The notes beneath the pieces were generated by a model. The model was given only the letters and a program-made list of their open reading frames with translations, did not search any database and had not been told where the DNA came from. A DNA stretch of 64,000 nucleotides from the NCBI RefSeq assembly GCF_014252955.1, contig NZ_JACMIA010000002.1, positions 1 through 64,000 of the forward strand, read 5' to 3'. Numbering within the stretch: position 1 is the stretch's first letter; the number at the start of each line of letters is the position of its first letter. The position numbers and the translations under genes are program-made. This DNA is from Stappia sp. 28M-7. Its GTDB lineage: Bacteria; Pseudomonadota; Alphaproteobacteria; Rhizobiales; Stappiaceae. Below are positions 36,112 through 56,529 of this stretch, in pieces.

Positions 36112-36137
36112 GACGCGGCCCGACGAAAAACATTACA
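36112..36137 (-). promoter_or_regulatory. ECF-type promoter 1 (Cys-rich gene)
   Basis: Minus strand TGTAATG-N15-CGTC. The -10-like CGTC is 33 bp before the ATG. One of seven identically spaced copies in the island. Confidence 0.8.
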
Positions 36138-36263
36138 AGGATTGGCAACCTGTCGGGCTTCGTTGGCAAAGGAAAATCTGTATCGGTCGACCGTAGGAAG
36201 GCGTCGATATTGCCGACGGAGCCACCGCAACCAGGCAGGCTGTCGGCTGACCGGTGCTATCGG

Positions 36264-37427
36264 TCAAAGCAGCCGCCGCGCGGCCCATCCGATCACCTCG
36301 AAACCACGCGCGCGCCAGCCGCGCGAACGCCAGGTCCGAAGCGTGATTTCACGGGCATCTGAAATATCTCGCAGATACTGCGCCTGCAACTGCCCGGCCA
36401 AAACGCGGTCATGCGCAAAGAGGACCAGCTCCTGATTGATGAAAAGGCTTCGGTAATCGAGGTTTGCCGATCCGACGATCGACCAGCCGGCATCGACGAC
36501 CGAAGTCTTGGCATGCAGTTGACGTGGCAAGTACTCGTAGACCCTCACGCCCGCCGAGAGAAGCTGCGCATATGCCGCCCGCGTCGCCCAGCCGGCGACC
36601 AGGGGATCGCTTCTGCGTGGCACCAGCAGACGGACGTCCACGCCGCGACGCGCGACATCCTGAAGCGCCCGGTCGACCACGGTGCCCGGGCTGAAATAGG
36701 GCGACGTCAAATAGACACAGGATTGTGCCATCCCGATCAGTCCCGCATGCAGACAGGCGAGCCTTTTCTGGCACTTGCGCGAATAGCTCGGCACCAGCAG
36801 TCCTTCGATGCCGTCGGCCTCTTCGGGAATTGCGTTTGCCGGAAGCGGGCGGGCCTCCCGCCAGAGTCGAATGAAATGACTTGCGGCAAGCGTCGCCAAC
36901 GGCCCCTGGACACGCACATGGGTATCGCGCTGGCGGCTTGCACCATGAAGCCGACGCGAGTTTAACCGGCGAATGTTGAAACCGCCCAGGAAGGCATCCC
37001 GGCCATCCACGACGAGAAGCTTGCGGTGATTGCGTTGGAAATATCGCAGCGGGTGTCGGAGATCGAAGGGGCGGAACCAGCGAAACCGCACACCGCTTCG
37101 TTCCAATTCCCGCCGAAACTTGTCGAAATCCCGCTGGCCAGCACCGAAAGCGTCGAGATGCAACCGAACGTCAACCCCGCTTCGCGCCTTGGCTGCAAGG
37201 GCGGAGACAAAACGCGCGCCGACTTCGTCGGTGGCAAAGATGTAGGATTCCATCCAGATTGCTTCGGTCGCGCCCTCGATCTCCGTGATCATCGCATCGA
37301 ACAGGGCATCCCCCTCGACAAAGAGCTGGAAAGCGCCCGACCCTTCGCCCAGATTTGGCACACACATCGCTGCCCGCGCCTGTGGCATCGTCAGGGAGTT
37401 TTCGCGAGGTGCGCGCGGGGTGCTCAT
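36264..37427 (-). CDS. Phospholipase D-like / cardiolipin synthase-type protein
   Basis: 387 residues with two HKD motifs: HRKLLVVDGRDAFLGGFN and HAKTSVVDAGWSIVGSANLD, each followed by the Gly/Ser/Asn expected. This is the cardiolipin synthase / PLD arrangement, acting on membrane phospholipids. No N-terminal membrane helices, unlike classical ClsA, so ClsB-like. The start is uncertain among MSTPRAP and a later Met. It lies last in the long minus-strand unit that begins near 43.1 kb. Likely membrane remodelling under stress, with Cfa and patatin. Confidence 0.9.
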   Translation of the reverse strand: MSTPRAPRENSLTMPQARAAMCVPNLGEGSGAFQLFVEGDALFDAMITEIEGATEAIWMESYIFATDEVGARFVSALAAKARSGVDVRLHLDAFGAGQRDFDKFRRELERSGVRFRWFRPFDLRHPLRYFQRNHRKLLVVDGRDAFLGGFNIRRLNSRRLHGASRQRDTHVRVQGPLATLAASHFIRLWREARPLPANAIPEEADGIEGLLVPSYSRKCQKRLACLHAGLIGMAQSCVYLTSPYFSPGTVVDRALQDVARRGVDVRLLVPRRSDPLVAGWATRAAYAQLLSAGVRVYEYLPRQLHAKTSVVDAGWSIVGSANLDYRSLFINQELVLFAHDRVLAGQLQAQYLRDISDAREITLRTWRSRGWRARGFEVIGWAARRLL

Positions 37428-37522
37428 GATCGCGGCCTACCGCCCCACTGGTTCGGTCGCAACATCGACGTCACGATGTCGGAGCCATGCTTGCAGCGCG
37501 AAAAGGCAAGACTGCACATCCG

Positions 37523-38682
37523 TCAGGTGTTCGCTGTTTCATGGGCGCCGTGCTGGCACCCGACACAATCGCAGTTCTCATGGCTGCAACTGCGGTCCTC
37601 CAAAGGGTTGCGGTAGTGAAAACGGGCGAGCGGCAGCAGCAGTCGCTTGGGCAATGAAAGCCGATATGCCTCGCCCAAGGCAATGCCAATGTCGGTCGTT
37701 TCCAGCTTACCGATCAGGTAGTCGATCCCGCGGGGGCCCGTCCGGTTGAACAGGTACCGATTGACGACACCACCGCGCAGGCCGGGTTGCAGCGCCTCAC
37801 GCCAGGCTTTCCTGTAGTCGACGCCGCTGATCAGGCTTTGGGCCGCCAGGGGCTCGGATCGCATCGCATAGCGTAGCCCGAATCCCGCCAGCGCGTCCTG
37901 GAAACCCGCGTGTTCGCCGATCACCGGGTTTCCATCCTGCATCGCGTGCGCGGCAATCGGACTTTCCCGAAACCGCCGAAGCCTCGCGGCGTTTTCATCT
38001 CCAGGCCCGCGTGACGCTTGAAGTATTCCACGGTTGCCGCGAGATATTTCGCTTGATCGCGAAAACCTGAAAACATGCAGCTGGCCACCGTGCCGCGCCC
38101 CCGGTGCACGAGCAGATAGGCGTAGCCCTTCGGGGCAAGCTCGGTCCCGAAGGCCAGCCACGCACCATCGGCCATAGAGGTGTCAAGGACGTAGCCCACG
38201 GCGATGATATCGGCCCGCCGTGGTCCGCCTGCCAGGACCATGTTGGTCGTGGTCTTTTTCACGCGATCGTTGAATCGCACCTCGGCCCCGGCCGCGCGGG
38301 CCTGATCCAGCAAGACCCGGTAAAGCGTTCCCGGTGCGTTGCCCCGGCGCAAAAGATAGTACAGGGGCTTCGATCCATGCACTCTGTGGGCCTTTGCATG
38401 GCTGTCGAAGACGAAGCCTTCGGTTGCACCGCGATGATCGAAATCGGCGACAACACCGGCATCAGCCAGTTCGTCCAGAACGTTCTGTGCGTCGCTCCAG
38501 TTTTCAAGGCCTTGAAAGTCGTCGTGGAACCGATGGCCGACATCTTCGTGCCACTCTCGCACCACGACCCGGCGATTGGCCTTGGCTAAAACGATTGCAC
38601 AGACCAGACCTGCGGGACCAGCCCCGACGATTTCAATCGTATTGTCTTCAGGGTCGGCGGAACCTGGCGTTAGCGCCATCAT
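37523..38682 (-). pseudogene. FAD-dependent oxidoreductase (geranylgeranyl reductase-like), frameshifted
   Basis: Starts with an FAD fold (IEIVGAGPAGLVCAIVLAKA) and continues as a geranylgeranyl-reductase-like flavoprotein to about residue 240. Near 37965 the frame changes: the first frame ends soon after GFGKVRLP, while the next frame continues the protein as ESPIAAHAMQDGNPVIGEHAG to 37523. Together they give 386 residues with a one-base deletion in GGGAAAG. The tail SCSHENCDCVGCQHG is rich in Cys and His. Real mutation or sequencing error cannot be told apart here. Confidence 0.85.
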
Positions 38683-38742
38683 ACGAACCCTCCTCGATAC
38701 GATCGACGTCCTGACAGGCCGGGTTTATCTCCGCAACGTGAG

Positions 38743-39438
38743 TCAGATCCCGTAAGCCCAGGCCGGCAGGCGGCCCATATGGACCTCAACCGTCCTGACA
38801 CCGGGCACGTTTTCGACGGCAACCCGGATCGCATTCTCCTCGAAATCGCTGTCGGCGACACCCCAGACGGCGACATTCCCCTTGTGCACGGTGTAGTTGA
38901 TGAGGTTGACCGCTGCACCAGGCACTTCTTTCAGAGCCTCTTCAATCTTTGCACGCAGCACGCGGTCGTCCTCCAACGGCTCCGGCAGCGCCCCATCCTT
39001 GAGTGCCGACAAGGCGTGGAGCAGGTTCGCCCGGCTTACGATGCCGACTACTTTGTCGGAACTCACCACCGGCACGCGCTTGATCCGGTGCTTTTCCAGA
39101 AGACGCGCGATCTCTGCGACAGTCGTGTCTTCCTCGACGGAAACGACATCGCGTGTCATCACATCCTCAACGTGGTGGCTTTTGAGTTTCACGAAATCCC
39201 GGGTGGAATCGCTCGATCCGCCCAGGACTTCGAGCCACCAGGACCGGCGTGGGCCGTCGGTTTCGCGGACACGCCGCATGAGATCGCCTTCGCTGACAAG
39301 TCCCTTGAGGCCGCCCTCTGCGTCGACGACGGGCAGCGCGCTGATGTGGTGGTCCAGCATCAGGCGCACCGCGTCCTCGACTTGTCCCTCCAGCGGGACC
39401 GAGATCACGGATGTTGTCATGATATCCTTGGCTTGCAT
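38743..39438 (-). CDS. CBS-CBS-BON domain protein
   Basis: 231 residues. Two CBS domains (MTTSVISVPLEGQVEDAV and MTRDVVSVEEDTTVAEIA starts) in the first 145, then a BON domain (about 160-225, with NYTVHKGNVAVWG and VPGVRTVEV). CBS pairs sense adenine nucleotides; BON domains bind membranes or other partners. No enzymatic part. It may report energy state, which suits neighbours handling AMP and arginine fermentation. Confidence 0.93.
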   Translation of the reverse strand: MQAKDIMTTSVISVPLEGQVEDAVRLMLDHHISALPVVDAEGGLKGLVSEGDLMRRVRETDGPRRSWWLEVLGGSSDSTRDFVKLKSHHVEDVMTRDVVSVEEDTTVAEIARLLEKHRIKRVPVVSSDKVVGIVSRANLLHALSALKDGALPEPLEDDRVLRAKIEEALKEVPGAAVNLINYTVHKGNVAVWGVADSDFEENAIRVAVENVPGVRTVEVHMGRLPAWAYGI

Positions 39439-39477
39439 GTCATGGTCTCCTTCTTGGACTATTGGACGATTCTTCGG

Positions 39478-40080
39478 TCAGGTGCCGATGACGAGTTGCA
39501 GGTCTTCGCCCAGCGTGTAGGGCGGGATGTCGAGGTTGCGCGGTGCCGGCCCTTTCCGTATCCGACCCGACGTATCGTAATGCGACCCGTGGCACGGGCA
39601 GAACCACCCGCCGAATTCGCCCACCGCCGACCCATCCTGGCCCAGGGGAATACAGCCCAGATGCGTGCAGACCCCGATGACGATCAGCCATTCACCATCC
39701 TCCCCCGCCGCGCGGTTTTCATCCAGTGCCGGCTCTTCGCCACTTAGATTGGGATTCTCGTCCGTTTCATCAACAGGATCGGGAAGCTCGTCGAGATCGA
39801 CGGCACGTGCAGCCTCGATTGCCGCTGGAGACCTGCGCCAGGCGAAGACCGGGCGCCCCTGCCACTTCACCGTAATGCGTTGGCCCGGTTCGACACCGGC
39901 AAGATCGACCCTGACCGTGCCGGACGCGGTCACATCCGCTGAGGGGTTCATCGAATTGATCAACGGCCAAACCGCCGCGCCTGCGGCAATCGCGCCGGTA
40001 GAGGCCGTTGCATAATAAAGGAAATCGCGGCGCTCTGTTGCGGGTAATTGATTGGTTTCGTCATTGGTCTGGCGCATCAT
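39478..40080 (-). CDS. Rieske iron-sulfur protein (PetA-like), without cytochrome bc1 partners
   Basis: 200 residues. Twin-arginine-like start [19 protein letters not shown] followed by a hydrophobic helix (membrane anchor), then the Rieske domain with CTHLGC and CPCHGSHYD. This is the ubiquinol-cytochrome c reductase type, exported by Tat. No petB or petC adjoins it, so it may exchange into the main bc1 complex under stress, or serve another acceptor. The ATG at 40080 overlaps the fabI-like stop (ATGA). Confidence 0.9.
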
Positions 40081-40809
40081 GATTCCTCCGATTTAGAGTT
40101 CATCTCCGCTGCGGCGACAGGGCTTTCGACGTGAACACCCGCATCGACATGCAGCACCTCGCCCGTGATGCCGCCGGTATAGTCGCTGGCGAACAGCAGG
40201 GCGGCGCGGCCCACCTCGTCGGCCTCGATGTTTCGCCGCAGGGGCGCGGCACGCGCGGTTGCGTCCAGAAGCCCGGCAAAGCCGGTCAACCCCGACGCCG
40301 CGCGGGTCATCACCGGCCCTGCCGAAATGGCGTTGACGCGGATGTTCGATGGCCCGAGTTCGTGCGCCAGATAGCGCACCGTAGCTTCGAGAGCCGCCTT
40401 GACCGGCCCCATCACGTTGTAATTCTCCACCACACGTTCGCCACCGAGATAACTCAGCGTGATGAGACTGCCGCCGCCTCTCATCAGGGGTTCGGCCAGA
40501 CGGGCCATTCGGATCAGCGAATGGACCGAAACATCCATCGCTTCGGTGAATCCTTCAGCCGAACAGTCGGTCAGGCGGCCATGAAGGTCGCCGGGCGGCA
40601 CGCTGCCCACGGCATGAAGGATAAAGTCCAGCTTTCCCCAGCGTTCGGTGATGGCATCAAAAACACCGTCGAGTTCATGCGGTGCGTTCACATCGCAGGG
40701 CAGCAGGCCAGGCCAGGCTGCGATCATTGGCGATGCCGACAACCAGACCCTTCCGGCCGGACAGATCAAGCAGTTCCGCAGGATCGCAGCATTCGTCTAA
40801 GTCAGGCAT
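40077..40809 (-). pseudogene. fabI: Enoyl-ACP reductase (FabI-like) with internal deletion
   Basis: The N-terminus LLDLSGRKGLVVGIAN-DRSLAW carries the FabI nucleotide-binding turn, but it jumps straight to LPCDVNAPHELD in another frame. About 45 codons that normally lie between are missing and the frame is broken. The join reads CCTGGCCTGGCC, so deletion between short repeats is likely. The rest (SYLGGERVVENYN-VMGPVKAALE to the end) is intact. Non-functional as a full reductase; the downstream part has Met codons but lacks the cofactor half-site. Overlaps the DUF2933 gene at its start. Confidence 0.88.
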
Positions 40810-40981
40810 CTTCGGATGCTGCCTTGGTATCGGAGGACGCGGCCTTTTTCTTCTCATGCACACTATGACTCTTGCTTGTCTTGCCATGTTTGTGTCCGCC
40901 ATGACCGTGCCCGAAAAGGTGTATCGCGGCCATTCCGCCGAAGAGGAGAACCAAAACCCAGTTCTGAGAAAGCCATTCCAT
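40802..40981 (-). CDS. DUF2933-like small His-rich membrane protein
   Basis: 59 residues, found by reading the minus strand. MEWLSQNWVLVLLFGGMAAIHLF is a single membrane helix, followed by GHGHGGHKHGKTSK with five histidines, then a Lys/Ala/Ser tail. This matches the DUF2933 pattern, small anchored proteins seen near metal-resistance genes. AAGGAGTG lies before the ATG. Its stop lies 8 bp inside the following fabI-like reading frame. Metal binding is inferred from the His cluster. Confidence 0.75.
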   Translation of the reverse strand: MEWLSQNWVLVLLFGGMAAIHLFGHGHGGHKHGKTSKSHSVHEKKKAASSDTKAASEDA

Positions 40982-40987
40982 ATTCGG

Positions 40988-42754
40988 TCACTCCTTGTGT
41001 GATACGGCGTCCGGATGGTCCGCCTGTGCAGGCGCCGTGATGACGGGGAAAGGGCCGAACATCGCGCCGAAGACACGGGCGATCCAGGCATCGCGCCCCT
41101 TGCGCCATGCGCCCAGAACCTCGCCGGTGCGCGCCGACAGCGCGCGTTCGGTGACAATCGCAAGGTGGTCTTCCGGCAAGGGGTCGCGCGTCTCGCGCAG
41201 CGTTTCGGCGGTGGATTTGACCAGCGCCATCCACGGATTCACCCGTTCGGAAAACATCGTCCGCGTCCAGCGCATCGGATGCAGGGCACGGAGCGCCTCG
41301 GCGCTGGCCGGGGTCGTCGCGGCGCGAATCCAAGGACTGACGAAAGTCGAATAGAAGGCCTCGTTGATCCGCGAAATCTGAGCGACCTGTTTCAAGGCCC
41401 CATCATCTGACGCAATGCCCAGATCATCGACCTCGCGCGGCTCGAACCGCACAGCGAAATCACCGCTCTCGCAATCCGGGTCGCCCGACGGGTTGTCGAT
41501 CACCATCTCGTAAAGCCCCGGCGCGAGCGCCTCGACCTCGTCCAGGCTTTCCAGGATCGCCCGATGCTGGAGCCGCGCGACGGAGCCGGAGACGAAAATT
41601 CCCAGATGCCCAACCCGGGGGTGGGTCATGTAGACGATGCGCTGCCCGGCTGCCTTGAGCGCATCGGTGTCAGGATAGAGCTTGCCGATCCACCCCATTG
41701 CCTGTTCGGGCGGCGTGATGTTGTCACCTTCCGAGGCGAAGATGATCAGCGGGTTGCGAATGCGTTTGAGGTCAATGGTGCAATGAGCGTCCAGTTGCAT
41801 CTCGCCCCGCTCCAGCCGGTTGCCGATGAACAGATTCTGCGTAATGCCGAGGATTTCCTCACGGCTGAGCGTGTAGTAGCCATTCCACCAGCGTTCGAAT
41901 TCGACGAACCGCTCACGCTCTGTGTCGGCATGGGCAAAGAGGGTCGCGTACTTATCCCAGATCGCCTTTTCCGGTTGCAGGGTCTCAAAATTCTGCGCCA
42001 GCCAGGCGCCGTCAAAGCGCCCGTCGCCCAGATCCGAGATCATATGCGCGGCCCAGGCCCCGCCGGTCAGCGCGCCCATCATCCGCATCGGGCTGCTTGC
42101 CGCCTCGCCCGACCAATAGCTGAGCGGTGAGCCATTCAGCACAATCGGACCGGTCAGGCCGTCGCAATCGGCGGCCAGCAGCGTGGCGGCCCAACCGGCC
42201 TGGCAATTGCCGTAGAGCACGGGGGCTGTGTCCGGGTGACGGCGCGCGACCTCGGAGACGAAATCGCGCAGGGCATAATGCACATCCGCCAGGGTCTGGC
42301 CGGGCACCGGCTCGGGAAAGAAGATCACGAAATAGACCGGGTGGCCTTCGTGCATCGCCATGCCGACCTCGCTGTCGCGCTTGAACCCGCCGATGCCCGG
42401 CCCGTGCCCGGCGCGCGGGTCGATCACGATCACCGGCGGCTTGGCCTCGTCCACGCAATCGTCCCAGCAATCCTCTCCCACCCGCGTGATCCTGAGCAGT
42501 GCGTAGTTGGCGGGCCGCTCGAAACTGCGGGCGTCAAGCAAAAGCTCGTAGTCGAAATCCAGCAGCGGCGGCATGCCCTGCCGCTCATGCGCGATCATGT
42601 TGTCGGCGCGTTCGCGCAGCGTGTCGAGGAACAGGATCCAGCGTTCAAAGGCGTCCTGAGCATAGGGCGTCTGCGCGCCCGTGCCCACATCGTCAGCGAC
42701 AGGTGCAGGGGCGTGTTCGGGCGTCTCCATCGCAAGGCGCAGGCTCTTGTTCAT
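40988..42754 (-). CDS. DUF3141 alpha/beta-hydrolase, polyhydroxyalkanoate-synthase-like
   Basis: 588 residues. Resembles DUF3141 proteins, relatives of class III PHA synthases. The nucleophile elbow reads VLYGNCQAGWAA, G-x-C-x-x-G, so a cysteine stands in the lipase-box position as in PHA synthases. A possible acid is in FASEGDNITPPEQ and a His in HPRVGHLGIF. No signal peptide. Function unproven: polymer or storage-granule chemistry, or acyl transfer. The ATG overlaps the preceding 110-aa gene (ATGA). Confidence 0.85.
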   Translation of the reverse strand: MNKSLRLAMETPEHAPAPVADDVGTGAQTPYAQDAFERWILFLDTLRERADNMIAHERQGMPPLLDFDYELLLDARSFERPANYALLRITRVGEDCWDDCVDEAKPPVIVIDPRAGHGPGIGGFKRDSEVGMAMHEGHPVYFVIFFPEPVPGQTLADVHYALRDFVSEVARRHPDTAPVLYGNCQAGWAATLLAADCDGLTGPIVLNGSPLSYWSGEAASSPMRMMGALTGGAWAAHMISDLGDGRFDGAWLAQNFETLQPEKAIWDKYATLFAHADTERERFVEFERWWNGYYTLSREEILGITQNLFIGNRLERGEMQLDAHCTIDLKRIRNPLIIFASEGDNITPPEQAMGWIGKLYPDTDALKAAGQRIVYMTHPRVGHLGIFVSGSVARLQHRAILESLDEVEALAPGLYEMVIDNPSGDPDCESGDFAVRFEPREVDDLGIASDDGALKQVAQISRINEAFYSTFVSPWIRAATTPASAEALRALHPMRWTRTMFSERVNPWMALVKSTAETLRETRDPLPEDHLAIVTERALSARTGEVLGAWRKGRDAWIARVFGAMFGPFPVITAPAQADHPDAVSHKE

Positions 42755-43083
42755 GTTCGGTTTCCTCTTGACTGGGGGTCTGTGCCGGAAGGTCTTCCAG
42801 CGAGCATCACAAGCACGAGATCCTCCGCGACATCCTCGCGCAGACCGGTCAGCAGATAGGACGCATCGCCGGGCTCGATGCCCAACGCGCGCGCCGCGAG
42901 TGACGGGGGCTGGTTCATCATTTCGACCCGGTTGAACAACGCCCGCGCCATCGGGGCGTCGGCATGCCCGCAGGTCTCGGCACAGGCACAGGTCATTTGC
43001 GAGAACAAGATCCGAAGATCATCGTCGTCGGATGATGAGTGACGGGTTCCCCCTGATTTCCGATCCATCGTCTTGCGTGGCAT
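42751..43083 (-). CDS. Unknown 110-aa protein, first gene of an ECF-controlled unit
   Basis: No family recognised. 110 residues, polar N-terminus, then CACAETCGH (a CxC-x3-CxH cluster, residues 32-40, possible metal site) and a helical C-terminus (LGIEPGDASYLLTGLREDVAEDLVLVML). AGGAG ten bases before the ATG; ECF-type promoter 49 bp upstream. Coupled to DUF3141, so the two may act together. Confidence 0.7.
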   Translation of the reverse strand: MPRKTMDRKSGGTRHSSSDDDDLRILFSQMTCACAETCGHADAPMARALFNRVEMMNQPPSLAARALGIEPGDASYLLTGLREDVAEDLVLVMLAGRPSGTDPQSRGNRT

Positions 43084-43131: not shown

Positions 43132-43157
43132 GACGCCGGAAGAAGGAAATCGTTACA
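43132..43157 (-). promoter_or_regulatory. ECF-type promoter 2 (110-aa gene, DUF3141 and downstream unit)
   Basis: Minus strand TGTAACG-N15-CGTC; identical in core to the copy before the second sigma factor. It lies between the sigma-factor stop and the next gene and could drive everything down to the PLD gene. Confidence 0.85.
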
Positions 43158-43175: not shown

Positions 43176-43802
43176 TCAGTGTTCCTGTCCCACGTCTTCG
43201 CAATCGGTTTCGTGTACGACGTTCGCGCAGCCTCTGGGCGGACAGGAACAATCCTCGCGATCCTCCCGGCAGCATGAGCCGCAATGCGCCGTCAGCGCCT
43301 CGCGCAGGGCAGTGCGCGCCCTGTGAAGCCGGACACCGAGGGCGTTGCGCGTTAATCCGAGATCGGCCGCCGCGGTCTCTCGATCCTCCTCGCCGAAATC
43401 TATGCGCCGGATCAGTTCGGACTCCACCGGGCGCAGTTCGGAAATCAGCCCCTCATGGCAGGTGCACAACCGCGCCATCTGGCTGGGCGCATCGGCGATC
43501 CAGTCTTCGGGTTCGCGCGCCGCCGCTGCCGCCAGACGGTTGCGCCGGGTTCCCTTGCGGTAGTGGTCGTTCAGGGTGGAGCGCAGTATCGTGTAGAGCC
43601 ACGCATCCATCCGGTCGACATCGCGGAGCTGATCCTTGCGGGTCAGCACCCGGATGCAGAACTCTTGCAACACATCCTCGGCATCCGCGCGGTTGCCGAG
43701 CCGTTTGACCAGGAACCCCATGAACGCGCCGCGCCCGTCCAACAGCGCGCGTTCCGGCGAAGTGCCGGGCACCTCCCGCGTGCGACTGTCTTGCGATGCC
43801 AT
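43176..43802 (-). CDS. ECF-like sigma factor with Cys-rich C-terminal tail
   Basis: RNA polymerase sigma factor of 208 residues. Region 2 (AEDVLQEFCIRV, then DAWLYTILRSTLNDHYRK) and region 4 (DRETAAADLGLTRNALGVRLHRART) are clear. A tail follows region 4 with Cys174, Cys177, Cys178, Cys185, Cys187, Cys192 and Cys201; the core C-x2-C-x7-C-x-C is shared exactly by the second sigma factor. No anti-sigma gene adjoins. CorE of Myxococcus (ECF44) has a Cys-rich tail that senses copper, so in-cis metal sensing is a fair hypothesis. A near-perfect FNR box lies 87 bp upstream. Confidence 0.9.
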   Translation of the reverse strand: MASQDSRTREVPGTSPERALLDGRGAFMGFLVKRLGNRADAEDVLQEFCIRVLTRKDQLRDVDRMDAWLYTILRSTLNDHYRKGTRRNRLAAAAAREPEDWIADAPSQMARLCTCHEGLISELRPVESELIRRIDFGEEDRETAAADLGLTRNALGVRLHRARTALREALTAHCGSCCREDREDCSCPPRGCANVVHETDCEDVGQEH

Positions 43803-44043: not shown

Positions 44044-44925
44044 CTACCCTTGTGGTCTGCCCTTGAGATTGACGAACACGATCCCCAAAATGACCAGCGC
44101 AATACCGGAAAACTGAATGCCGGACAGACGTTCCCCGAAGAACAGTGCGCCAATCGTAAGACCGAAGATCGGGACCAGAAAGCTGAACACGATCGCCCGG
44201 TTCAGCTCGACCTCCTCCAAGACCGAGAACCAGACCCAATACACCAGCGCCGAGCCGAAAAGGGCCAACCCCAGCAAGGATAACGTGAAGGCCGCGTTCC
44301 ATTGAACCGCGGTCGGATCTTCCATTGCGAAGGCCGCGATGGCCAATGGCACGCTGCCGATGAGCAGTTGCATCCCCATTCCGAAAAGCCCGTCCACCTT
44401 GTCCGCGATGGACTTGATCGCCACGTTGCTGATGGTCACGCCGACCGCCGCCAGAACGATATAGGCAAAGCCGATGGCCGAGCCGTCCTGCCCCCCCTCC
44501 AGCAGTTGCGGCAGGGCGATCACGAGGACACCCGCGAAGCCGACCGACAGGCCGATCCAGCCGATCCTCGGCAGGTGCTCGCCAAGCCACGCGACGCCAA
44601 GCATCGCCGCAAGCAGGGGCTGCGTGTTGGCGATGACGGTGGCGAGGCCGGGAGACACAAACTCGGCCGCATGAAACATGCCCACAAACCCCAGGCTGGT
44701 CGCCCCAAGGCCGACGACAGCCAGTGTCACCCAGATGCGCCCGCCGCGCGGAAATGGCCGACGCAAGATCACGGCCAACCCCACCAGAGCCGCGCCTGCC
44801 AGACCTGCCCGCATCGTCGCAAAGGTCAGGTGCGGCGCGTATTGCAGCCCCGCCGTGATCAGCGGAAAGCACGCCGCCCACAGGAACATGGCCAGAACGA
44901 TCTTGGATATGACGGTTGGCGACAT
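44044..44925 (-). CDS. EamA/DMT-family transporter
   Basis: 293 residues with ten hydrophobic segments, made of two EamA repeats (first ends about residue 140; second begins SAIGFAYIVLAAVGVTISN). Substrate unknown; such proteins export metabolites or amino acids. An ECF-type promoter of the island lies 79 bp upstream, so it is part of the stress regulon. It is divergent from the second sigma-factor gene. Confidence 0.9.
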   Translation of the reverse strand: MSPTVISKIVLAMFLWAACFPLITAGLQYAPHLTFATMRAGLAGAALVGLAVILRRPFPRGGRIWVTLAVVGLGATSLGFVGMFHAAEFVSPGLATVIANTQPLLAAMLGVAWLGEHLPRIGWIGLSVGFAGVLVIALPQLLEGGQDGSAIGFAYIVLAAVGVTISNVAIKSIADKVDGLFGMGMQLLIGSVPLAIAAFAMEDPTAVQWNAAFTLSLLGLALFGSALVYWVWFSVLEEVELNRAIVFSFLVPIFGLTIGALFFGERLSGIQFSGIALVILGIVFVNLKGRPQG

Positions 44926-45003: not shown

Positions 45004-45029
45004 GACGTTGCGCCCGCCTAAGTCTTACA
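45004..45029 (-). promoter_or_regulatory. ECF-type promoter 3 (EamA gene)
   Basis: Minus strand TGTAAGA-N15-CGTC, a slightly divergent -35 but the same spacing. 79 bp upstream of the ATG. Confidence 0.7.
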
Positions 45030-45131: not shown

Positions 45132-45157
45132 TGTAACGTTTCCGGTGCTTCGGCGTC
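45132..45157 (+). promoter_or_regulatory. ECF-type promoter 4 (second sigma factor)
   Basis: Plus strand TGTAACG-N15-CGTC, ending 20 bp before the ATG at 45178. It suggests that a sigma factor of this type controls its own gene. Confidence 0.85.
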
Positions 45158-45177: not shown

Positions 45178-45847
45178 ATGAATGAGGACCGAAAACACCG
45201 CTCTTCCGTAGAATATCTGCGCGATACAGCCGCCAAGGTCGCGGATACCGCTGTGCGTCGTGCGCTGGTGGAAGGCCGTCAGCATGTCCTGCGTTTCCTG
45301 ATTCGACGGCTGGGCGATGCGGACGCCGCCGAGGACGTCCTGCAAACGTTCATGCTGCGGGCCATAGACCGCTCCGAGCAACTACGCGATGTGCGCGCCG
45401 TTCGCGGCTGGCTCAGTCAGATCCTGGCGTCGTCGATTGCGGATTACGGTCGCAAGGTTGCGCGGCAGCGTCAGAGGGAGGTGGTGATGGCCCCAACCGA
45501 CCTGGACAACATCCAAGACGGGTTCGACGAAGAACTCGACGAGGCGATTTGCAATTGTCTTTACAAACTGCTGCCGACGATCAAGCCGGAATACGCGGAA
45601 GTGATCTGGCGCGTCGATCTTCAGGAGCAGCCGCGCGAGACCGTCGCCGCAGACCTTGGCATCACGCTGAACAACCTCACCGTCCGTCTCCACCCGGGGT
45701 CGACAGGCGTTGAAGACGAGGTTGGAACAGATGTGCCTGACCTGCCCCGTTCATGGCTTTCTCGATTGCGATTGCGACGCGACGGAAAAGGCACGCGCGC
45801 GCTTTCAGGCGCTGAAAGACGATGCCGGGGCCCAAACGACGGACTGA
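45178..45847 (+). pseudogene. Second ECF-like sigma factor, frameshifted before its Cys tail
   Basis: Regions 2 (AEDVLQTFMLRA) and 4 (PRETVAADLGITLNNLTVRLH) are intact, residues 1-172. At 45693-45695 an extra C (CACCCGGGG for CACCGGGG) shifts the frame. Restoring it gives RLHRGRQALKTRLEQMC and the tail CLTCPVHGFLDCDC, C-x2-C-x7-C-x-C, ending at 45847. As read, the protein instead gains an unrelated tail to 45993 and loses the Cys module. It may still work as a sigma factor, uncontrolled, or the extra C may be a sequencing error. AGAGG lies before the ATG. Confidence 0.82.
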
Positions 45848-46029: not shown

Positions 46030-46093
46030 TGTTCTACCAGACAGCGGCTGTTGATGCCGCCTTTGGAAGAATAACGGGATGGAGCAAGCAATC

Positions 46094-48518: not shown

Positions 48519-49289
48519 TCAGCCCGCCGCCATGCCCCCGTCGACGGGATATTGCGCCCCGGTGATAAAGGCGGATTCGTCGGAGGCAAGGAACAGGACC
48601 AGATTGGCAATATCGAGGCTTTCGCCATAGCGGCCCAGCGGGATCGTGTCGGCAAGCTGTTGCTTCACCTCCTCGCCGTGGCCGGGATTGAACCCCTCCT
48701 CCAGCGACCGCATCATCCGCGTGTTGACCGGCGAGGGATGCACGGAGTTGACGCGCACGTTGTGCCTTGCGACCTCTATCGCGGCGGCGCGCGTCAAACC
48801 GACGACGGCATGTTTCGACGTGATGTAGGGTGCGACGTTCGGGCTGCCCTTGAGGCCCGCAATCGACGACATGTTGATCACGCTGCCGCATTTCTGCCCA
48901 GTCATCACCGGCAGGACATGCTGCAGCCCAAGAAACGCGCCGCGCACATTGACCGCCATCACGCGGTCGAAATCCTCGATTTTCTGGTCGGCCAGCGGCG
49001 CGACCTTGCCTTCGATTCCGGCATTGTTGAAGAACACGTCGATGCGCCCGAACGTCTCGACGGTCTGCGCGACGTATCTCTTGCAATCCTCGACCGAGGA
49101 GACGTCGGCTGCGATTGTCAGCAGGTCGTCCGGACTGCCCAGATCCCGCGCAGCATCCGACAGGTCGTCATCGTGGAGGTCCACAAGTGTGACCTTGGCC
49201 CCCTCACTCAAGAAGAGCCGCGCGGTTTCCAGACCGATGCCTGCCGCACCGCCGGTGATCAGGGCGACTTTATCTTTCAGACGTTTCAT
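48519..49289 (-). CDS. Short-chain dehydrogenase/reductase
   Basis: 256 residues, classical SDR. TGGAAGIGLETARL is the cofactor motif, NNAG follows, Ser is in MSSIAG, and the catalytic Y-x3-K is in YITSKHAV. Glucose/3-oxoacyl dehydrogenase-like; substrate not told by sequence. It lies 18 bp after arcC in the arginine deiminase unit, so probably co-transcribed. Confidence 0.92.
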   Translation of the reverse strand: MKRLKDKVALITGGAAGIGLETARLFLSEGAKVTLVDLHDDDLSDAARDLGSPDDLLTIAADVSSVEDCKRYVAQTVETFGRIDVFFNNAGIEGKVAPLADQKIEDFDRVMAVNVRGAFLGLQHVLPVMTGQKCGSVINMSSIAGLKGSPNVAPYITSKHAVVGLTRAAAIEVARHNVRVNSVHPSPVNTRMMRSLEEGFNPGHGEEVKQQLADTIPLGRYGESLDIANLVLFLASDESAFITGAQYPVDGGMAAG

Positions 49290-49307
49290 GGTTGGTCCTC
49301 CTTGCTT

Positions 49308-50219
49308 TCAGGTGTTTGCGATCATCGTCCCTGCGCGGCCCTCCAGCATGGCAAGAGCGTCTTCCAGGCGGCCCACGCAGGCGAAACGGTCGCGCCCCGA
49401 GACGAATGTCGCAGCGGCTGCCACTTTCGGTGCCATCGACCCGTCGGGCAGGTCTAGGCGCACTGCGTCCTCCGGTGACAATTGCCTTATCGCCGCCTGT
49501 GTATTAGTGCCGAAATCGCGGAACACAGCCTCGACATCCGTCAGCAACAGCAGACCATCGGCCTTCAACTTGTGGGCCAGAAGCGCCGTCGCATGATCCT
49601 TGTCGATCACCGCCTCGATCCCGATCAGCGATCCGTCCGGCCGCCGGATAACCGGAATGCCGCCACCGCCCGCACAGATCAGCGTGACGTCATGACCGAG
49701 CAGCAGTTCCAGCACCTTCAGGTCGGGAATGTCACTGGGCATCGGCGACGGCACCACGCGCCGCCAGTGCGGACCATCGGCGGCAATGCTCCAGCCGCGC
49801 GCTTCGGCCAGCCGCTCGGCCTCTGCCTTGTCATAGACCGGACCGATGAACTTGGTCGGCCGGTCAAAGGCAGGATCCCTGGGGTCGACCTCGATCTGGG
49901 TCAGCAGCGTGGCCACCGCGCGGTCGTGACCGAGGGCGTTTTCGAGCGCCTGTTCGATCATGTAGCCGATCATGCCATCGGTCTCTGCACCCAGAACGTC
50001 GAGGGGAAACGCGTCGTCAGGCTTGTAGGCCGCGCCTTGCAGGGCCAGCAGGCCGATCTGCGGGCCGTTTCCATGGGTGATGACCAGCCTGTGCCCGGCG
50101 CGGATAATCTGAGCCAGCGCCGTCGCGGCACCGGCGACGTTGGCGCGCTGCGCCTCGGCGGTCAGCGGCTCGCCCCGGCGCAACAGGGCATTGCCCCCCA
50201 GGGCTGCGACAACCAGCAT
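49308..50219 (-). CDS. arcC: Carbamate kinase
   Basis: Last step of the arginine deiminase pathway: carbamoyl phosphate plus ADP to ATP, CO2 and ammonia. 303 residues; start VVAALGGNALLRRG and the ITHGNGPQIGLL and CAGGGGIPVI motifs are typical. It lies 4 bp after the arcB stop. Confidence 0.95.
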   Translation of the reverse strand: MLVVAALGGNALLRRGEPLTAEAQRANVAGAATALAQIIRAGHRLVITHGNGPQIGLLALQGAAYKPDDAFPLDVLGAETDGMIGYMIEQALENALGHDRAVATLLTQIEVDPRDPAFDRPTKFIGPVYDKAEAERLAEARGWSIAADGPHWRRVVPSPMPSDIPDLKVLELLLGHDVTLICAGGGGIPVIRRPDGSLIGIEAVIDKDHATALLAHKLKADGLLLLTDVEAVFRDFGTNTQAAIRQLSPEDAVRLDLPDGSMAPKVAAAATFVSGRDRFACVGRLEDALAMLEGRAGTMIANT

Positions 50220-50223
50220 GGCG

Positions 50224-51225
50224 CTAAGACCCCAGCGTGGCGACGAGCACAGCCTTGATGGTGTGCAGCCGGTTCTCGGCCTGATCGAACACGATTGAGG
50301 CCGGGCTTTCGAACACCTCTTCCGTCACCTCCATCGCGGAGATGCCGAAAAGCTCGGCGATCTCGGCGCCGGTTTCGGTCTCGGCATTGTGGAAGGCGGG
50401 CAGGCAATGCATGAATCTGGTGCGCGGATTGCCGGTCTTGGCCATCACGTCGGCATTCACCTGATAGGGCGTCAGCAGCTCAATCCGTTCCGCCCATTTT
50501 TCTTTCGGCTCGCCCATCGACACCCAGACATCGGTATAGACGAAATCGACGTCTTTCACCGCGGCTTCCATATCATCGGTCAGCGTGATCCGTGCGCCGG
50601 TCTGCGCGGCGATGGCATCTGCCTCGTCGCGGATCGCCTGGCCCGGCCACAGGCTCTCGGGCGCGCAGAGCCGCACATCCATACCCATTTTGGCCCCGCC
50701 GATCAGCAGGCTGTCGCCCATGTTGTTGCCCGCATCGCCCATGAAGCAATAGGCGATCTCGCGCAGCGGCTTGTCGGAATGTTCCTGCATGGTCAGGAAA
50801 TCGGCAAGGATCTGCGTCGGGTGGAATTCGTCCGTCAGCCCGTTATAGACCGGCACGCCCGCGTATTGCGCCAGCGTTTCGACTATGGGGTGACCAAATC
50901 CGCGATATTCGATCGCGTCATAGACCCGGCCCAGCACGCGCGCGGTGTCCTTGACGGTTTCCTTCTTGCCCATGTGCGAACCCGAAGGGCCGAGGTAGGT
51001 GACATGCGCGCCCTGATCGTGGGCGGCCACCTCGAAACCGACGCGGGTCCGGGTGCTGTCCTTCTCGAAGATCAGCGCGATCTCCTTGCCGGTCAGGCGC
51101 GGCACCTCGGTGCCTGCGTATTTCGCGGCCTTCAGGTCGGCGGAGAGTTTCAGCAGGAAGCCGATTTCCTGCGGGGTGAAGTCGCGCAGGGTCAGGAAAT
51201 GGCGGTTTCTCAGGTTGTAGGACAT
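50224..51225 (-). CDS. arcB: Ornithine carbamoyltransferase, catabolic
   Basis: Converts citrulline and phosphate into ornithine and carbamoyl phosphate. 333 residues. Carbamoyl phosphate motif STRTRVGFE and ornithine motif HCLPAFHN are present. Gene order D-A-B-C and length indicate the catabolic ArcB role rather than ArgF. Confidence 0.95.
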
Positions 51226-51249
51226 GGGGTTTCCTTGTCGTCGAAGGGT

Positions 51250-52479
51250 TCAAATGGCGTCGCGGATCGTCGGGCAGCTCATGCAATGGCTGCCGCCCCT
51301 GCCGCGACCCAGTTCTGCGCCGGGGATGGCCAGCACCTCGATCCCGGCCTCCTTGAGGGCGGCGTTGGTATCGTCGTTGCGGTCGTAGCCGATGACGACG
51401 CCGGGGCGCAGCGCCAGCACGTTGTTGCCGTCATTCCACTGTTCGCGTGATTGCTCGGCCGCATCAGAACCGCCGGTAGGCACCAGGTGCAGTTTCTTAT
51501 GGCCGAGGATCTCGGCGGTGATCTCGAACAGGTGCCGGGCGTCGCGACGGATATCGAGCGCCGTCTTGCCCGCGCCTGGGCGCAGGTCATAGCAGGTGAT
51601 CGCATCCGCCACTTCCTTGAACGTGGTCACCACATCGCCCCCGCAATGGGTGAAAACGGTGTCCAGATGCATTGCCGCACGGGAACTGGGCATCTGGCAG
51701 GCGATCACCCGCGTCACGTCGCCACCCTCGAACAACGCCTCGGCCAGTTGGCCCACCGCCTGTGGCGTCGATCGTTCGCCCATGCCGACCATGACGACAC
51801 CGTGGCCGATGGGCATGATGTCACCGCCTTCCAGCGTGGCGGTGCCGAACTCGCGCGTCGGATCGCCGAACAGGACCCTTACCCGACCCGCGAATGTCGG
51901 ATGGAACCGGTAGACTGCCGCCATCAGCAGCGTTTCGGGCCGCCGCGCGGCGAAATGCATCGGGTTCAGGCTGACCCCGCCATAGACCCACGCGGAATTG
52001 TCACGGGTAAAGATGAAATTCGGTAGCGGCGGCAGCACGAAACCATGCGGGCCAAGATAGGCGCCGAACATGCCGGAAGGTGTGAAAGGCAAGTCGTCCA
52101 CCCTGATGCCGCCCACAAGAAATCTCGCGAGATCGGCGCCGGAGAGGGACTCCATCCAAGCGCGCAGCTCGTCCCGCATCCCAACGCCGACGTCATTGCG
52201 GGTGACGCGGTGGTCGAGAACCCAGGCGCGTGCATCCGACAGGTCGAGCGTTTCGCCCAGCAGCGCCATGGCGTCCAGCACCTCGATCCCCTCACCGCGC
52301 ATCAGGTCGGCAAACACCGCGTGGTCTTTGATCGCCTGTTTGACCCAGAAAACATCGTCGAACAGCAGGTCTTCGCGGTTGTCAGGGGTCAGGCGGCGAT
52401 GCGCAAGGCCGGGCGGCGATACGATTACCTGACGCAACGTGCCGGCTTCGGAATGTACGCCCAATTTCAGTTCAGACAT
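51250..52479 (-). CDS. arcA: Arginine deiminase
   Basis: Hydrolyses arginine to citrulline and ammonia. 409 residues. [12 protein letters not shown], the [12 protein letters not shown] motif with catalytic His/Asp, and the C-terminal catalytic Cys399 in [12 protein letters not shown] are all present. Energy source without oxygen and acid defence. Confidence 0.96.
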
Positions 52480-52501
52480 CTGGGATGCCTCCTTTATTCA
52501 A

Positions 52502-53950
52502 TCAGAGAATGGCGGCCAGGCTGATCCCGGCCGAGATGAAGACGACGAGGATCAGCAGCAGGGGCCAGATGAAGACGATCCAGCGGTCGAACGACACGCG
52601 CCCGATGGCCAGACCGCCGATCACCACCGCCGATGTCGGCGTGATCAGATTCACGAGCCCGCTCGCCGATTGATAGGCCGTCACCACGAGATCACGGCCA
52701 ACCCCCGCGAAATCCCCCAACGGGGCAAGGATCGGCATCGACAGGACGGCGAGGCCGGACGACGAGGGCACCAGGAAGCTCATCCCGATCTCGATCCAGA
52801 GCATCAGGTTGATGAACGCGATCTGAGGCAGGCCACCAAGCGCGTCGGCGGCACTGTTCAGGATCGTGTCGGCAATCAGGCCCTGCTCCATGATCACCAC
52901 GATGCCGCGCGCCAGACCGATCACCAGCGCCACCCCCAGGAGATCCTTGGCACCTTCCACAAAGGACGCGGTCAGCGCCTTTTCCCCCATCCGCGCCACC
53001 AGCCCGACCACGATGGCCATGCCGAAGAACAGCGCGCCCATCCGGGCCATCCACCATCCCTGGCTGGAGACCCCCCAGATCATCACGGCAAAGGTCGCGA
53101 AAAACAGGATCAGAACCAGTTTCTGGGTGCCGCTCAGCTTTGGCTCCTCGAATTCTGCATCCGTCTCGTTCAGAAAAAACTGCCGGTCGCTGTCGCGTTG
53201 CGTGGCAACGACGGACCGGGCCGGGTCGGCTTTGACCTTTGATGCGTAGCGCATCACGTAGGCGACACAGATTGCGAGGCCGCCCAACAGAATAACCAGC
53301 CGCAAAGCCATGCCTTCGGTGAACGGGATGCCCGCCGCGTTCGAGGCAATCACCGTGGCGAAGGGGTTGATCGTCGATCCCAGCGTGCCGATCCCGGCGC
53401 CGATCAGGATGATTGCCACGCCGGTCACCGAATCGTAGCCGGCCGCGATCACCACCGGGATCAGCAGCGCATAGAAGGCCAGCGTTTCCTCGGCCATGCC
53501 ATAGGTCGTCCCCCCCAGGGCAAAGAGCGACATCAAGATCGGAATCATCCATATCTCTCGCCCCTTAAGGCGCACCATCGCGGTCTGGATGCCGGTGTCG
53601 ATGGCCTTGGTGGCGTTGACCACACCCAGAAAACCACCCAGAAGCAGCACGAACAGCGCCACGTCGATGGCATTGGCCGCATAGCTGTCGGGATCGTAGA
53701 ACCCGGCGACCGGTGCCAGCATCACATCGACGAAGCCCTGCGGGTTGGGATCGACCTCCTGGTAGGTGCCGGGCACGGCGATCTCGCGGCCCACCTCCTC
53801 GTTCATGGCGCGGTCATACTGGCCCGCCGGGATGATCCAGGTCAGCGCCGCGACGACGATGATCAGACCGAACAGGATCGTGTAGGCGGTCGGAAACCGC
53901 GCCGCCATGCCCTTCCCGTCCGGTGTCTTGGTCGATGATGTGTCTGACAT
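52502..53950 (-). CDS. arcD: YfcC-type arginine/ornithine antiporter
   Basis: 482 residues, about 12 membrane helices, of the YfcC/ArcD-like ion-transporter superfamily (DUF401/AbgT-like). TAYTILFGLIIVVAALTWIIPAGQYDR is the typical N-terminus. First gene of arcDABC. It starts 16 bp after the copper-ATPase stop, so may share that ECF promoter. Substrate inferred from the operon. Confidence 0.88.
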   Translation of the reverse strand: MSDTSSTKTPDGKGMAARFPTAYTILFGLIIVVAALTWIIPAGQYDRAMNEEVGREIAVPGTYQEVDPNPQGFVDVMLAPVAGFYDPDSYAANAIDVALFVLLLGGFLGVVNATKAIDTGIQTAMVRLKGREIWMIPILMSLFALGGTTYGMAEETLAFYALLIPVVIAAGYDSVTGVAIILIGAGIGTLGSTINPFATVIASNAAGIPFTEGMALRLVILLGGLAICVAYVMRYASKVKADPARSVVATQRDSDRQFFLNETDAEFEEPKLSGTQKLVLILFFATFAVMIWGVSSQGWWMARMGALFFGMAIVVGLVARMGEKALTASFVEGAKDLLGVALVIGLARGIVVIMEQGLIADTILNSAADALGGLPQIAFINLMLWIEIGMSFLVPSSSGLAVLSMPILAPLGDFAGVGRDLVVTAYQSASGLVNLITPTSAVVIGGLAIGRVSFDRWIVFIWPLLLILVVFISAGISLAAIL

Positions 53951-53966
53951 CTCAAGTCCCCCTTAT

Positions 53967-56333
53967 TCAATGTGATTTCTGCGAGTGTCCGGCGTGAAGC
54001 GGCACCTGGCCTGCCTGCGCATCGCCCTGACCGCCGCCGCTGGCGGACCCACTCTTGCCCGCACCAATACCTTCCAGCCGCGTTCGTTTCAGCAGCAGCG
54101 CGTTGACCGCCACCAGCGCGGAGCTGCCCGACATGGCAAGCGCTGCCACGGCGGGGCTGATGATCAACGGATAAAACACCCCTGCCGCCATCGGAAAGGC
54201 GACCACGTTGTAAGCCACGGCCCAGAACAGGTTCTGGTGCATCTTGCGCAAGGTGGCGCGCGACAACTCGATGGCCCCCACGACATCGTAGGGATCGCTT
54301 TTCATCAGCACGACATCGGCGCTTTCCATCGCCACGTCGGTGCCCGCACCGATGGCAAATCCGACATCGGCCTGGGTCAACGCGGGTGCGTCGTTGACAC
54401 CGTCACCGACCATGCCGACGCGTCTGCCCTGGGCCTGAAGCTCTTTCACCTTCTCGGCCTTCTGGCCCGGAAGAACATCTGCCAGCACAATGTCGATGCC
54501 CAGCTCGGCCGCGATCCGCCGTGCGGTGCCTTCGTTGTCGCCGGTCAGCATCGCCACCTCGACCCCGCGTTCGCGCAGCTTGGCCACGGCGGCCACCGCA
54601 CTTGGGCGCGGCGCATCGGCGATGGCGATAAGGCCCAGCATCCGGCCCGCTTGCGCCACATGCACGACCGTACGACCCTCGCCCTTCAGGCGCTCGGCCT
54701 CGGCTGTCAGGGTGCCAACGTCGATGCCCTCCTCGTCCATCAGCCGCCGGTTCCCGACCAGCACGGTTTCGCCTGCGATCTCGGCGCGCGCGCCCCGGCC
54801 TTCGAGGTTGAGGAACCCGGCCATCTGCGGCACGTCCAGGTCGGCGGCGCGCTCGACAATGGCCAGGGCCAGCGGGTGGTCGGAACCGCGATCGACCGCC
54901 GCCGCGGCCCGCAACGCATCATCTTCGGTGCTGCCCTCACCGGACACCACCTCGACCACGCGCGGCTGGCCCATGGTCAGGGTGCCGGTCTTGTCGAAAA
55001 CGATCACATCGAGCTTGGTCGCGTCTTCCAGCGCGCCCGCGTTCTTGAACAGGATGCCGTGCTGCGCCCCCAGCCCGGTGCCGACCATCACCGCCATCGG
55101 CGTGGCCAGCCCCAGCGCATCGGGACAGGCGATCACGAAAACGGTAATGGTCAGCGTCAGCGCGAAGAGCAGCGGCGAGCCGATCCACCAGAACCACACC
55201 GCGAATGTCGCAAGCCCGATCACGATGGCGATCAGGACCAGCCATTGCGAGGCGCGGTCGGCCAGAAGTTGCGCAGGGGCCTTGGAGTTCTGCGCCTCCT
55301 GCACCAGCTTGACGATCTGCGCCAGCGCAGTGTCGGCCCCGACCTTGGTGGCACGGTAGCGGAAGCTGCCGCTCTTGTTGATCGTGGCGCCGATCACGGT
55401 GTCGCCCACGGCCTTGTTCACCGGCATGGATTCGCCCGTCAGCATGGATTCGTCCACCAGCGACGTGCCTTCGATGACCTCGCCATCGACGGGGATCTTG
55501 TTGCCGGGCCGGATCAGCACGATCTCGCCCTGCAGCACCTCGGAGGTGGGCACCTCGACCTCCTGCCCGTCGCGGATGACGGTCGCCATCGGCGGCGCAA
55601 GATCAAGAAGCGCCCGGATCGCAGCCGAAGCGCCGGCGCGCGCGCGCATCTCCAGCCAGTGGCCCAGCAGGATGAAGACCAGCAGCACCGCCACGGCCTC
55701 GTAGAACTGCACGCCGGGAAAGAAAAAGGTCGAGCCGACGCTGAACACATAGCCCGTGCCGACCGACAGCACGACCAGCACTGCCATGTTCAGGATGCCG
55801 TTGCGCAGCGCCCGCCAGGCGGCGACGAAGAACGGCCAGCTTGGCCAGATGATCGCGGCACTGCCCAGAAAGAACAGCCACAGGTCCAGCCTCAAACCGA
55901 AAGGCGGCGCGGGCGGCGTGAACATGCCCCCCATCGGCGAATAGATGAAGATCGGGACGGTGAACAGCAGCGCCACCCAGAAGCGGTTGCGCATGTCGCG
56001 GACCATGTCGGCCATGTCCATGCCGCCGCCGTGGCCCATCTCATGCGCCATTGCATCATGGCCGGCGGATGCATCCCCTTTGGGCATCTGGTGGTCCGCA
56101 TGGCAGACGTGGTTCGGAACCCGCTCCCCGGCGCAGTGAAACCCGCAGGTTTGAATTGTGCGCTGCAGCGTCTCTTCGCTGACCGCCGCTTCGTCGTAAT
56201 GTACTGTCACGCTTGCCGATGCCGGGTTCGCTTCGGCGCGGTGCACGCCGTCCAGAGCTGACAAATGGCGTTCGACCGCGAGATGATCGAGTTCCTCGAA
56301 TAGCCCGCCGACTTCAAGGTTCAGTGTCTTCAA
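53967..56333 (-). CDS. Copper-type P1B ATPase with CPD membrane motif
   Basis: About 788 residues. TTG start at 56333, after AGGAGCC; a longer ATG at 56414 would lie within the promoter and is rejected. An N-terminal metal domain lacks CxxC (GLFEELD instead), then a Met/His-rich linker. TGES, DKTGTLT, SDHPLA and GDGVND are normal. Membrane helix 6 has [10 protein letters not shown] where CopA has CPC and CopB CPH; helices 7-8 carry YN-x4-P and M-x2-SS, the Cu(I) signature. Copper is inferred. Drives the arc operon region from one promoter. Specific substrate not certain. Confidence 0.88.
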
Positions 56334-56392
56334 TGTTGGCTCCTGTCGATTTTGTTGCGATCGGGATCGACCGCTTGGATGTTTGAGTGATA

Positions 56393-56418
56393 GACGCGGC
56401 CCGGCTTCAGTCATTACA
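56393..56418 (-). promoter_or_regulatory. ECF-type promoter 6 (P-ATPase and arc unit)
   Basis: Minus strand TGTAATG-N15-CGTC, 60 bp before the TTG start. It overlaps the ATG at 56414, so that codon cannot be a start from this promoter. Confidence 0.8.
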
Positions 56419-56503
56419 CTGGCAGATGGGCGGAATTGGCCGGACGGCGGCCGCTGGGCGTTTCCATCGTCTCAGATCACGAGGTATGGGGCAAATCCGG
56501 TTG

Positions 56504-56529
56504 CGTAACGATGTGTCTCGTTCAGCGTC
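56504..56529 (+). promoter_or_regulatory. ECF-type promoter 7 (patatin gene)
   Basis: Plus strand CGTAACG-N15-CGTC, 35 bp before the TTG start, back-to-back with promoter 6. Confidence 0.75.

Follow-up and report, generated by a model that had tools for sequence, protein, structure and literature searches.

What reads a two-part motif that stands ahead of gene after gene in one island of Stappia sp. 28M-7 is the question raised by the first 64,000 nucleotides of contig NZ_JACMIA010000002.1 (the window). A sequence-only reading had noted seven copies of the motif between positions 36,112 and 56,529. It took them for promoters of the extracytoplasmic function (ECF) sigma factor type that place nearly the whole island under one switch. 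The ECF form is still the best reading of the sites, and it can now be sharpened to the CorE-like group, with likely regulators inside the island. As judged from the sequence, the sites very likely serve as promoters for CorE-like ECF sigma factors whose genes lie in the same mobile island.

The seven copies were recovered at the coordinates and on the strands given before. They are s1 (36112..36137, minus strand, TGTAATG), s2 (43132..43157, minus, TGTAACG), s3 (45004..45029, minus, TGTAAGA), s4 (45132..45157, plus, TGTAACG), s5 (46004..46029, plus, TGTAATG), s6 (56393..56418, minus, TGTAATG) and s7 (56504..56529, plus, CGTAACG), each continuing with N15-CGTC. Six match the strict pattern TGTAA-N17-CGTC, which is equivalent to TGTAAnn-N15-CGTC, and the seventh is the CGTAACG form at 56504; "spacing 17" denotes the TGTAA-to-CGTC distance. 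The spacer length of N15 is the same in all seven, as had been claimed. So is the orientation: each site aims at a start codon, with CGTC 20–78 nt before it (32, 48, 78, 20, 49, 59 and 35 nt for s1–s7), within the 20–80 bp first described. The six strict copies in the window compare with 0.19 expected, and 100 shuffles gave at most 2. When TGTAA..CGTC pairs at spacings 8–25 were counted in the window, six were found at 17, one at 10, one at 19 and none otherwise; the lone pair at 10 uses the -35 element of the site at 46004.

The strict pattern was then counted in the whole genome (5,126,068 bases, 11 contigs). Nine copies were found: six in the window, one at C2:67836 just past it on the same 168.8-kb contig (C2), and two on the 4.73-Mb contig C1. 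The pattern read backwards, as a control, has 24 copies in the genome. By genome-wide number the motif is thus not rare, and the extreme feature is its clustering, with seven of the nine strict copies inside 32 kb of C2. The Poisson probability of finding at least 6 copies within 20.4 kb is 6e-16 when the C1 rate is used and 1e-9 with the control rate. A matrix was built from 85 sites of relatives, with the window left out and TGTAA[CTG]-N16-CGTC as the training pattern. It picked exactly eight strong sites on C2, the seven and C2:67836, with scores of 18.6–30.5; the next-best C2 site scored 8.9 and the best in 280 kb of C1 14.1. The expectation that the motif would be uncommon elsewhere therefore held for its clustering and its separation by the matrix on C2, but not for its number in the genome.

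Chance origin is ruled out by the clustering, the fixed spacing and a blind test on genomes chosen by their sigma genes (below). A chromosome-wide regulon is likewise ruled out, as 4.73 Mb of C1 hold only the two strict sites. The first of these lies inside an open reading frame (ORF) on the opposite strand, LysR-type by eye, and the second in an ambiguous stretch with no clear target.

The regulators of the sites are very probably sigma A and sigma B, both of which are encoded inside the island and resemble ECF sigma factors of the CorE-like group (former ECF44/ECF238). Sigma A (43176..43802, minus strand) is an intact protein of 208 aa with matches to Sigma70_r2 (2e-11) and, under the Pfam cut-off for that domain, to Sigma70_r4_2 (1.3e-4). 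Sigma B (45178..45990, plus strand), which lies behind s4, is frame-broken near 45690; in its relatives, the sigma2 and sigma4 domains both score above cut-off. CorE-like features, as described in PMC8999054 and PMC3107203, are a CXC motif in the linker and a cysteine-rich C-terminus. The linker motif is formed by C113 and C115 in sigma A (113–115) and reads CNC in sigma B. The four invariant C-terminal cysteines of the CorE type are present in sigma A as C174, C177, C185 and C187; those of sigma B are present in relatives and out of frame in the window gene. None of the six cysteines varies among 31 A- and B-type sequences.

In a wider set of 60 distinct sigma proteins, 59 carry CXC and 56 the exact C-x2-C-x7-C-x-C C-terminus. 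At the cysteine-rich end, four depart from the exact form: L060, which is one residue longer, the broken L068, the broken sigma B of the window and the Nonomuraea control L087, which is also the only one of the 60 without CXC. Sigma B is intact in a single frame in 20/20 relatives (15 of 222 aa, five of 218 aa), which rules out a programmed frameshift. Its break in the window is a sequencing error or a recent loss, and the two cannot be told apart. The single switch first proposed is supported as an ECF-type regulon, with the qualification that there are two paralogous sigma genes, one intact and one, under s4, broken.

The likeness to CorE of M. xanthus, as given in PMC3107203, extends beyond CXC and the cysteine-rich C-terminus to the equal spacing of the four invariant cysteines (CorE 181, 184, 192 and 194). 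CorE controls metal ATPases, and its description in that source includes no recognised linked anti-sigma gene. The genes next to the island sigma genes encode EamA, a 110-aa protein and the cyclopropane-fatty-acid-synthase family protein (cfa), none of which was recognised as an anti-sigma factor; the 110-aa protein, which is sigma4-like, could be a regulator beside sigma A. In the CorE promoter described in the same source, the -35 contains AAC and the -10 has a conserved G, at a distance of 16–18 nt. In contrast to CorE as presented there, the island sigma factors form a plasmid-borne pair without Cys189, would have a wider set of targets, and include one with a sigma4-like small protein beside it. 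The position of CorE Cys189 is held by Arg in sigma A, Phe in the relatives' sigma B and Cys in Candidatus Manganitrophus (L076). CorE2 of M. xanthus belongs to the same group and responds to Cd/Zn according to PMC8999054; it is likened to the island factors by description only. Its response shows the metal to be set by the cysteine pattern, so the island sigma factors may answer to a signal other than copper.

The sites were compared with those of relatives by counting the distinct upstreams of each orthologous gene that carry the motif. Site s1 is kept in 20/20 and s2 in 28/29. For s3 the count is 10/21, with one strict copy, for s5 9/16 and for s6 2/7. Site s4 is kept in 12/36 upstreams of the best sigma matches, most of the others being those of other sigma genes. 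The eighth site is kept in 2/2 upstreams of this set, which held no relative for s7. Spacings 13–21 were scanned in the orthologous upstreams, and 17 alone was seen. When 20 distinct stretches lying behind sigma A were aligned without reference to the motif, GTAA, G and CGTCTT proved invariant while the spacer changed. Control of nearly the whole island, as first proposed, gains in reach by the eighth site and is qualified by this unequal conservation: s1, s2 and the eighth site persist in nearly all of the relatives compared, s3, s5 and s6 in some of them, and s7 in both patatin relatives that were read, which are identical to each other.

These counts bear on a reading that we consider unlikely, in which only some of the sites function, s3, s6 and s7 being weak sites or relics in decay, and the regulon does not extend over the whole island. 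The matrix scores are lowest for s7 (18.6) and then s3 (21.5), the strict form of s3 and the motif at s6 are scarce among relatives, and sigma B is broken. Nevertheless, every one of the eight sites scores at least 18.6, against at most 8.9 for the rest of C2. Moreover, s6 and s7 are both present in identical stretches on two Paracoccus plasmids, again at spacing 17 and with s7 as CGTAACG before patatin.

The eighth site (C2:67836-67861, minus strand) lies outside the window, with its CGTC 102 nt ahead of a NuoA-like gene. The gene heads a complex-I-like operon (C2:59053-67733, minus strand), the window part of which (59053-63781) encodes N-, M- and L-type subunits. After nuoA, the operon encodes a subunit that matches the 49-kDa type weakly and contains two heavy-metal-binding domains, followed by NADHdh-, J-type, L, M and N subunits. 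The heavy-metal-binding subunit is His-rich. In Paracoccus sediminicola, the annotated order is A, metal-binding subunit, H, J, K, L, M, N. Operons of this kind with the metal-binding subunit were found in 12 plasmid records, including Rubrobacter, where the operon lies beside copper genes. Thirteen nuoA upstreams were read, from 11 of the 12 plasmid records, locus L041 and the window. The motif stands before nuoA at spacing 17 in 10 of the 13, that is, in the window and in 9/9 Rhodobacterales loci; it was not found in the nuoA upstreams of Nitratireductor and two Rubrobacter records.

The motif recurs around CorE-like sigma genes elsewhere. Searching with sigma A gave 36 loci, some of which overlap on one contig; they hold 116 sites at spacing 17 in 64 distinct contexts, and at most 7 at any other spacing. 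In these loci the backwards control reached 8 sites at 17 and as many as 15 at a single spacing, high counts that we attribute to shared descent. Fourteen distant plasmid loci (Rhizobiaceae, Xanthobacteraceae, Sphingomonadales, Azospirillaceae, Caulobacterales, Stappiaceae, Rhodobacterales and Nitrospirota) yielded 38 sites at 17, and no other spacing had more than 3. The ECF control loci without CXC or a cysteine-rich end (Nonomuraea L087 and Streptomyces L070) showed no motif. The four other genomes of the family with such a sigma factor gave 7 strict sites at 17 in 93 kb and 3 in total at the other spacings from 12 to 22. In the blind test, four genomes of the class were chosen by sigma alone; 131 kb held 18 sites at 17 and at most 2 at other spacings, and the 80-kb control stretches of these genomes held none at spacing 17. 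Distinct sites at spacing 17 lie before a gene start in 66/104 cases, against 16/46 at other spacings. These placement counts are given little weight because the rough gene picker labels some clear promoters as coding. On three Rhizobiales plasmids (L078 21708(-), L081 23505(-), L082 22516(-)), the motif precedes a Crp/Fnr-type gene that adjoins a CorE-like sigma gene. The sites, their fixed spacing and conservation, the family features and the co-occurrence with such sigma genes can thus be read from the DNA itself.

Several observations weigh against assigning the sites to these sigma factors. No such site was found in the 258 nt upstream of sigma A; our guess is that this gene is transcribed by read-through from s3, and an s3 site was not found in a scan of R. 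litoralis. Some of the relatives have lost s3, s5 or s6. Cys189, the main copper-activating residue of CorE, is absent from both sigma A and sigma B, so copper is doubtful as the signal. Among the sigma matches of the blind test, the strict pattern recognised the cysteine-rich end in 6/10, and whole-genome motif counts fail to separate family genomes with the sigma factor from those without it. Lastly, the motif stands before nuoA on NZ_CP025813, NZ_CP139710 and NZ_CP123976, and no sigma A match is listed for these records, which cover those replicons only.

The state of the sigma genes in some relatives was also followed. In Heliomarina (L068), sigma A is broken, sigma B is intact and five sites are kept. 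Phaeobacter 22II1-1F12B (L069) has the same partial sigma A match, which points to the same break, with sigma B intact and the sites kept. A third sigma factor, 72% identical, is encoded on the same Heliomarina and Phaeobacter contigs (L066, L067), and owing to this location it may also serve the sites. R. litoralis pRLO149_83 has two sites and one sigma match in the record. These cases fit sigma factors with shared promoters and are not proof of them.

The sites might instead be promoters of another, chromosomal sigma factor, for example of the ECF16 type, with the island sigma genes as bystanders. C1 holds nine further sigma-70 region 2 matches, and promoters of S. meliloti RpoE7 (ECF16) share the TGTAAC start of the -35 (PMC6180224). 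However, the ECF16 -10 is CGAAT in that account, and all eight sites have CGTC rather than the TGTAAC -35 with CGAA -10 combination. The chromosomal contig C1 has just its two strict copies, and the motif accompanies CorE-like sigma genes in several orders and as far as Nitrospirota. We therefore regard a chromosomal sigma factor as very improbable. ECF16 also differs in having a membrane anti-sigma gene, and the description of it in PMC6180224 mentions no cysteine-rich tail. ECF41, represented by S. meliloti RpoE9, shares the CGTC -10 and a fused C-terminal regulatory part with the island system; it differs by its TGTCAC -35 and by a SnoaL-like extension instead of a cysteine-rich one (PMC6180224; PMC8999054).

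There is similarly little chance that the motif is the operator of a Crp/Fnr-, CueR- or CopR-type DNA-binding regulator: copper genes with CueR or response regulators do occur near some relatives, and a Crp/Fnr gene lies behind a site in three Rhizobiales loci, but the motif is asymmetric and two-part, has a single spacing, points to a gene at all eight sites and ends 20–102 nt before the start, as a promoter would.

With promoters of CorE-like sigma factors as the preferred reading, the genes behind the sites were surveyed. Site s2 lies between sigma A and the gene of the 110-aa protein (42751..43083, minus strand). This protein appears to be a free-standing version of the linker CXC with a sigma4-like domain, without region 2 or the cysteine-rich tail. 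Its profile aligned with the sigma profile from CXC through region 4 with a score of 30.9–31.5 (E 2-3e-4 for a single comparison, probability 39–46%); 200 column shuffles scored at most 21.0 and the reversed profile 11.0. Predicted helices at 43–55, 60–66 and 71–96 match the sigma helices at 125–135, 141–148 and 152–174. The model has a mean pLDDT (predicted local distance difference test) of 56.5, and the PDB folds found with it are mostly sigma region 4, with a best E of 0.04 and none below 0.001. No Pfam or NCBIfam family matched the protein, and its sequence has few basic residues at the expected position of the recognition helix. Sigma A directly precedes the gene in 14/14 plasmid records that have the 110-aa protein. 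In the class it was found in 1/385 genomes, that of Stappia sp. 28M-7 alone. The protein, encoded behind s2, is possibly, and we say so tentatively, a partner that gives feedback to a sigma group for which no such partner was expected; it might compete for RNA polymerase or for the fold of the sigma factor itself, or pass on metal through its CXC pair.

The further genes behind s2 (36264..42754, minus strand), for which gene order suggests co-transcription, encode DUF3141 (40988-42754), a shortened FabI-like short-chain dehydrogenase/reductase (SDR; 40077-40769), Rieske (39478-40080), CBS-BON (38743-39438), FAD-binding (37921-38682) and PLD-like (36264-37427) proteins. In the FabI-like gene (40077-40769, minus strand), about 98 bases that are found in relatives are missing near 40695-40707.

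Site s1 precedes five genes (31665..36079, minus strand). These encode a Cys-rich protein of 55 aa (35912-36079), a 102-aa ORF (35707-36015 as called) that takes its DUF5676 name from the annotation of relatives, a beta-CASP/MBL nuclease (34054-35628), a member of the thymidine/AMP phosphorylase family (32549-34057) and ribose-phosphate diphosphokinase (prs, 31665-32552). Site s3 stands before an EamA/DMT transporter gene (44044..44925, minus strand). Behind s5 lie cfa (46079-47434, plus strand) and a type II GAPDH gene (gap, 47431-48474, plus strand). Three of the island enzymes look archaeal: the nuclease, which is aCPSF1-like and under the cut-off of that family, the phosphorylase, of an archaeal-type family, and the type II GAPDH.

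The unit behind s6 (48519..56333, minus strand) encodes a P1B-type ATPase (53967-56333), a YfcC/DcuC carrier, arginine deiminase, ornithine carbamoyltransferase, carbamate kinase and an SDR. The ATPase scored 604 bits with the Cu-family model (cut-off 397) and 416 with the Cd-family model (cut-off 313.5), so the best match is Cu-translocating. Copper pumps usually carry a CPC motif. The ATPase (53967-56333, minus strand) reads ACPDALG, with CPD at this place. Site s7 precedes a patatin-like phospholipase gene with a TTG start (56565..57467, plus strand).

The rest of the window holds a hydrogenase region (262-16767) with genes for the NiFe hydrogenase large subunit, HypF, AIRS-type (HypE-like) and CobW/HypB-type proteins and a sigma-54 activator. 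Transposase genes at 19355-24187 and 29943-31289 lie between the hydrogenase part and the island. The block is 92% identical to Alterinioella nitratireducens over 13.1 kb and 91–92% identical to Allosediminivita pacifica over 13.1 + 7.4 kb. A 24.5-kb query was at least 80% covered on four Roseovarius/Sulfitobacter plasmids and 58% covered on a Paracoccus plasmid. Such a sigma factor was found in 5/87 genomes of the family and 5/385 of the class, Stappia sp. 28M-7 being included in both.

A sequence of events can be proposed in which we infer everything from metal binding onward, including transcription, the assignment of sigma factor to site and the identity of the metal. If the island factors work like CorE, binding of a metal ion at CXC and the cysteine-rich end would enable the sigma factor to attach to DNA, and no anti-sigma factor would be involved. 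Together with RNA polymerase it would start transcription from TGTAAYR-N15-CGTC(T) at the eight promoters and so switch on the island in a single response; s4 would provide positive feedback on sigma B, and transcription from s3 might continue through EamA into sigma A. The P1B ATPase would export metal and the Cys-rich protein bind it, while cfa, PLD and patatin would alter membrane lipids. ATP and nucleotides would be supplied by the arginine deiminase pathway, the phosphorylase, prs, the type II GAPDH and the metal-binding complex-I-like operon.

The CorE-like sigma group has been known since 2011. Sigma proteins of this kind are not new: in PMC3107203 the group already includes three from Roseovarius sp. 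217, two from TM1035 and one from R. litoralis. The promoter signature, the regulon, its mobility and the 110-aa partner were not found in the open-licence literature that was searched, and the motif may have been described earlier. TGTAAYR-N15-CGTCT recurred in every tested set of CorE-like sigma loci; the regulons of a little-studied metal-sensing sigma group may therefore be readable from genomes. The sigma genes travel with their promoters: the identity to two Rhodobacterales is about 91–92%, yet the sigma factor is present in few genomes of the family. The findings also point to a possible new sigma4-like partner, and they suggest that a metal signal may mobilise energy, lipid and nucleotide functions in addition to efflux.

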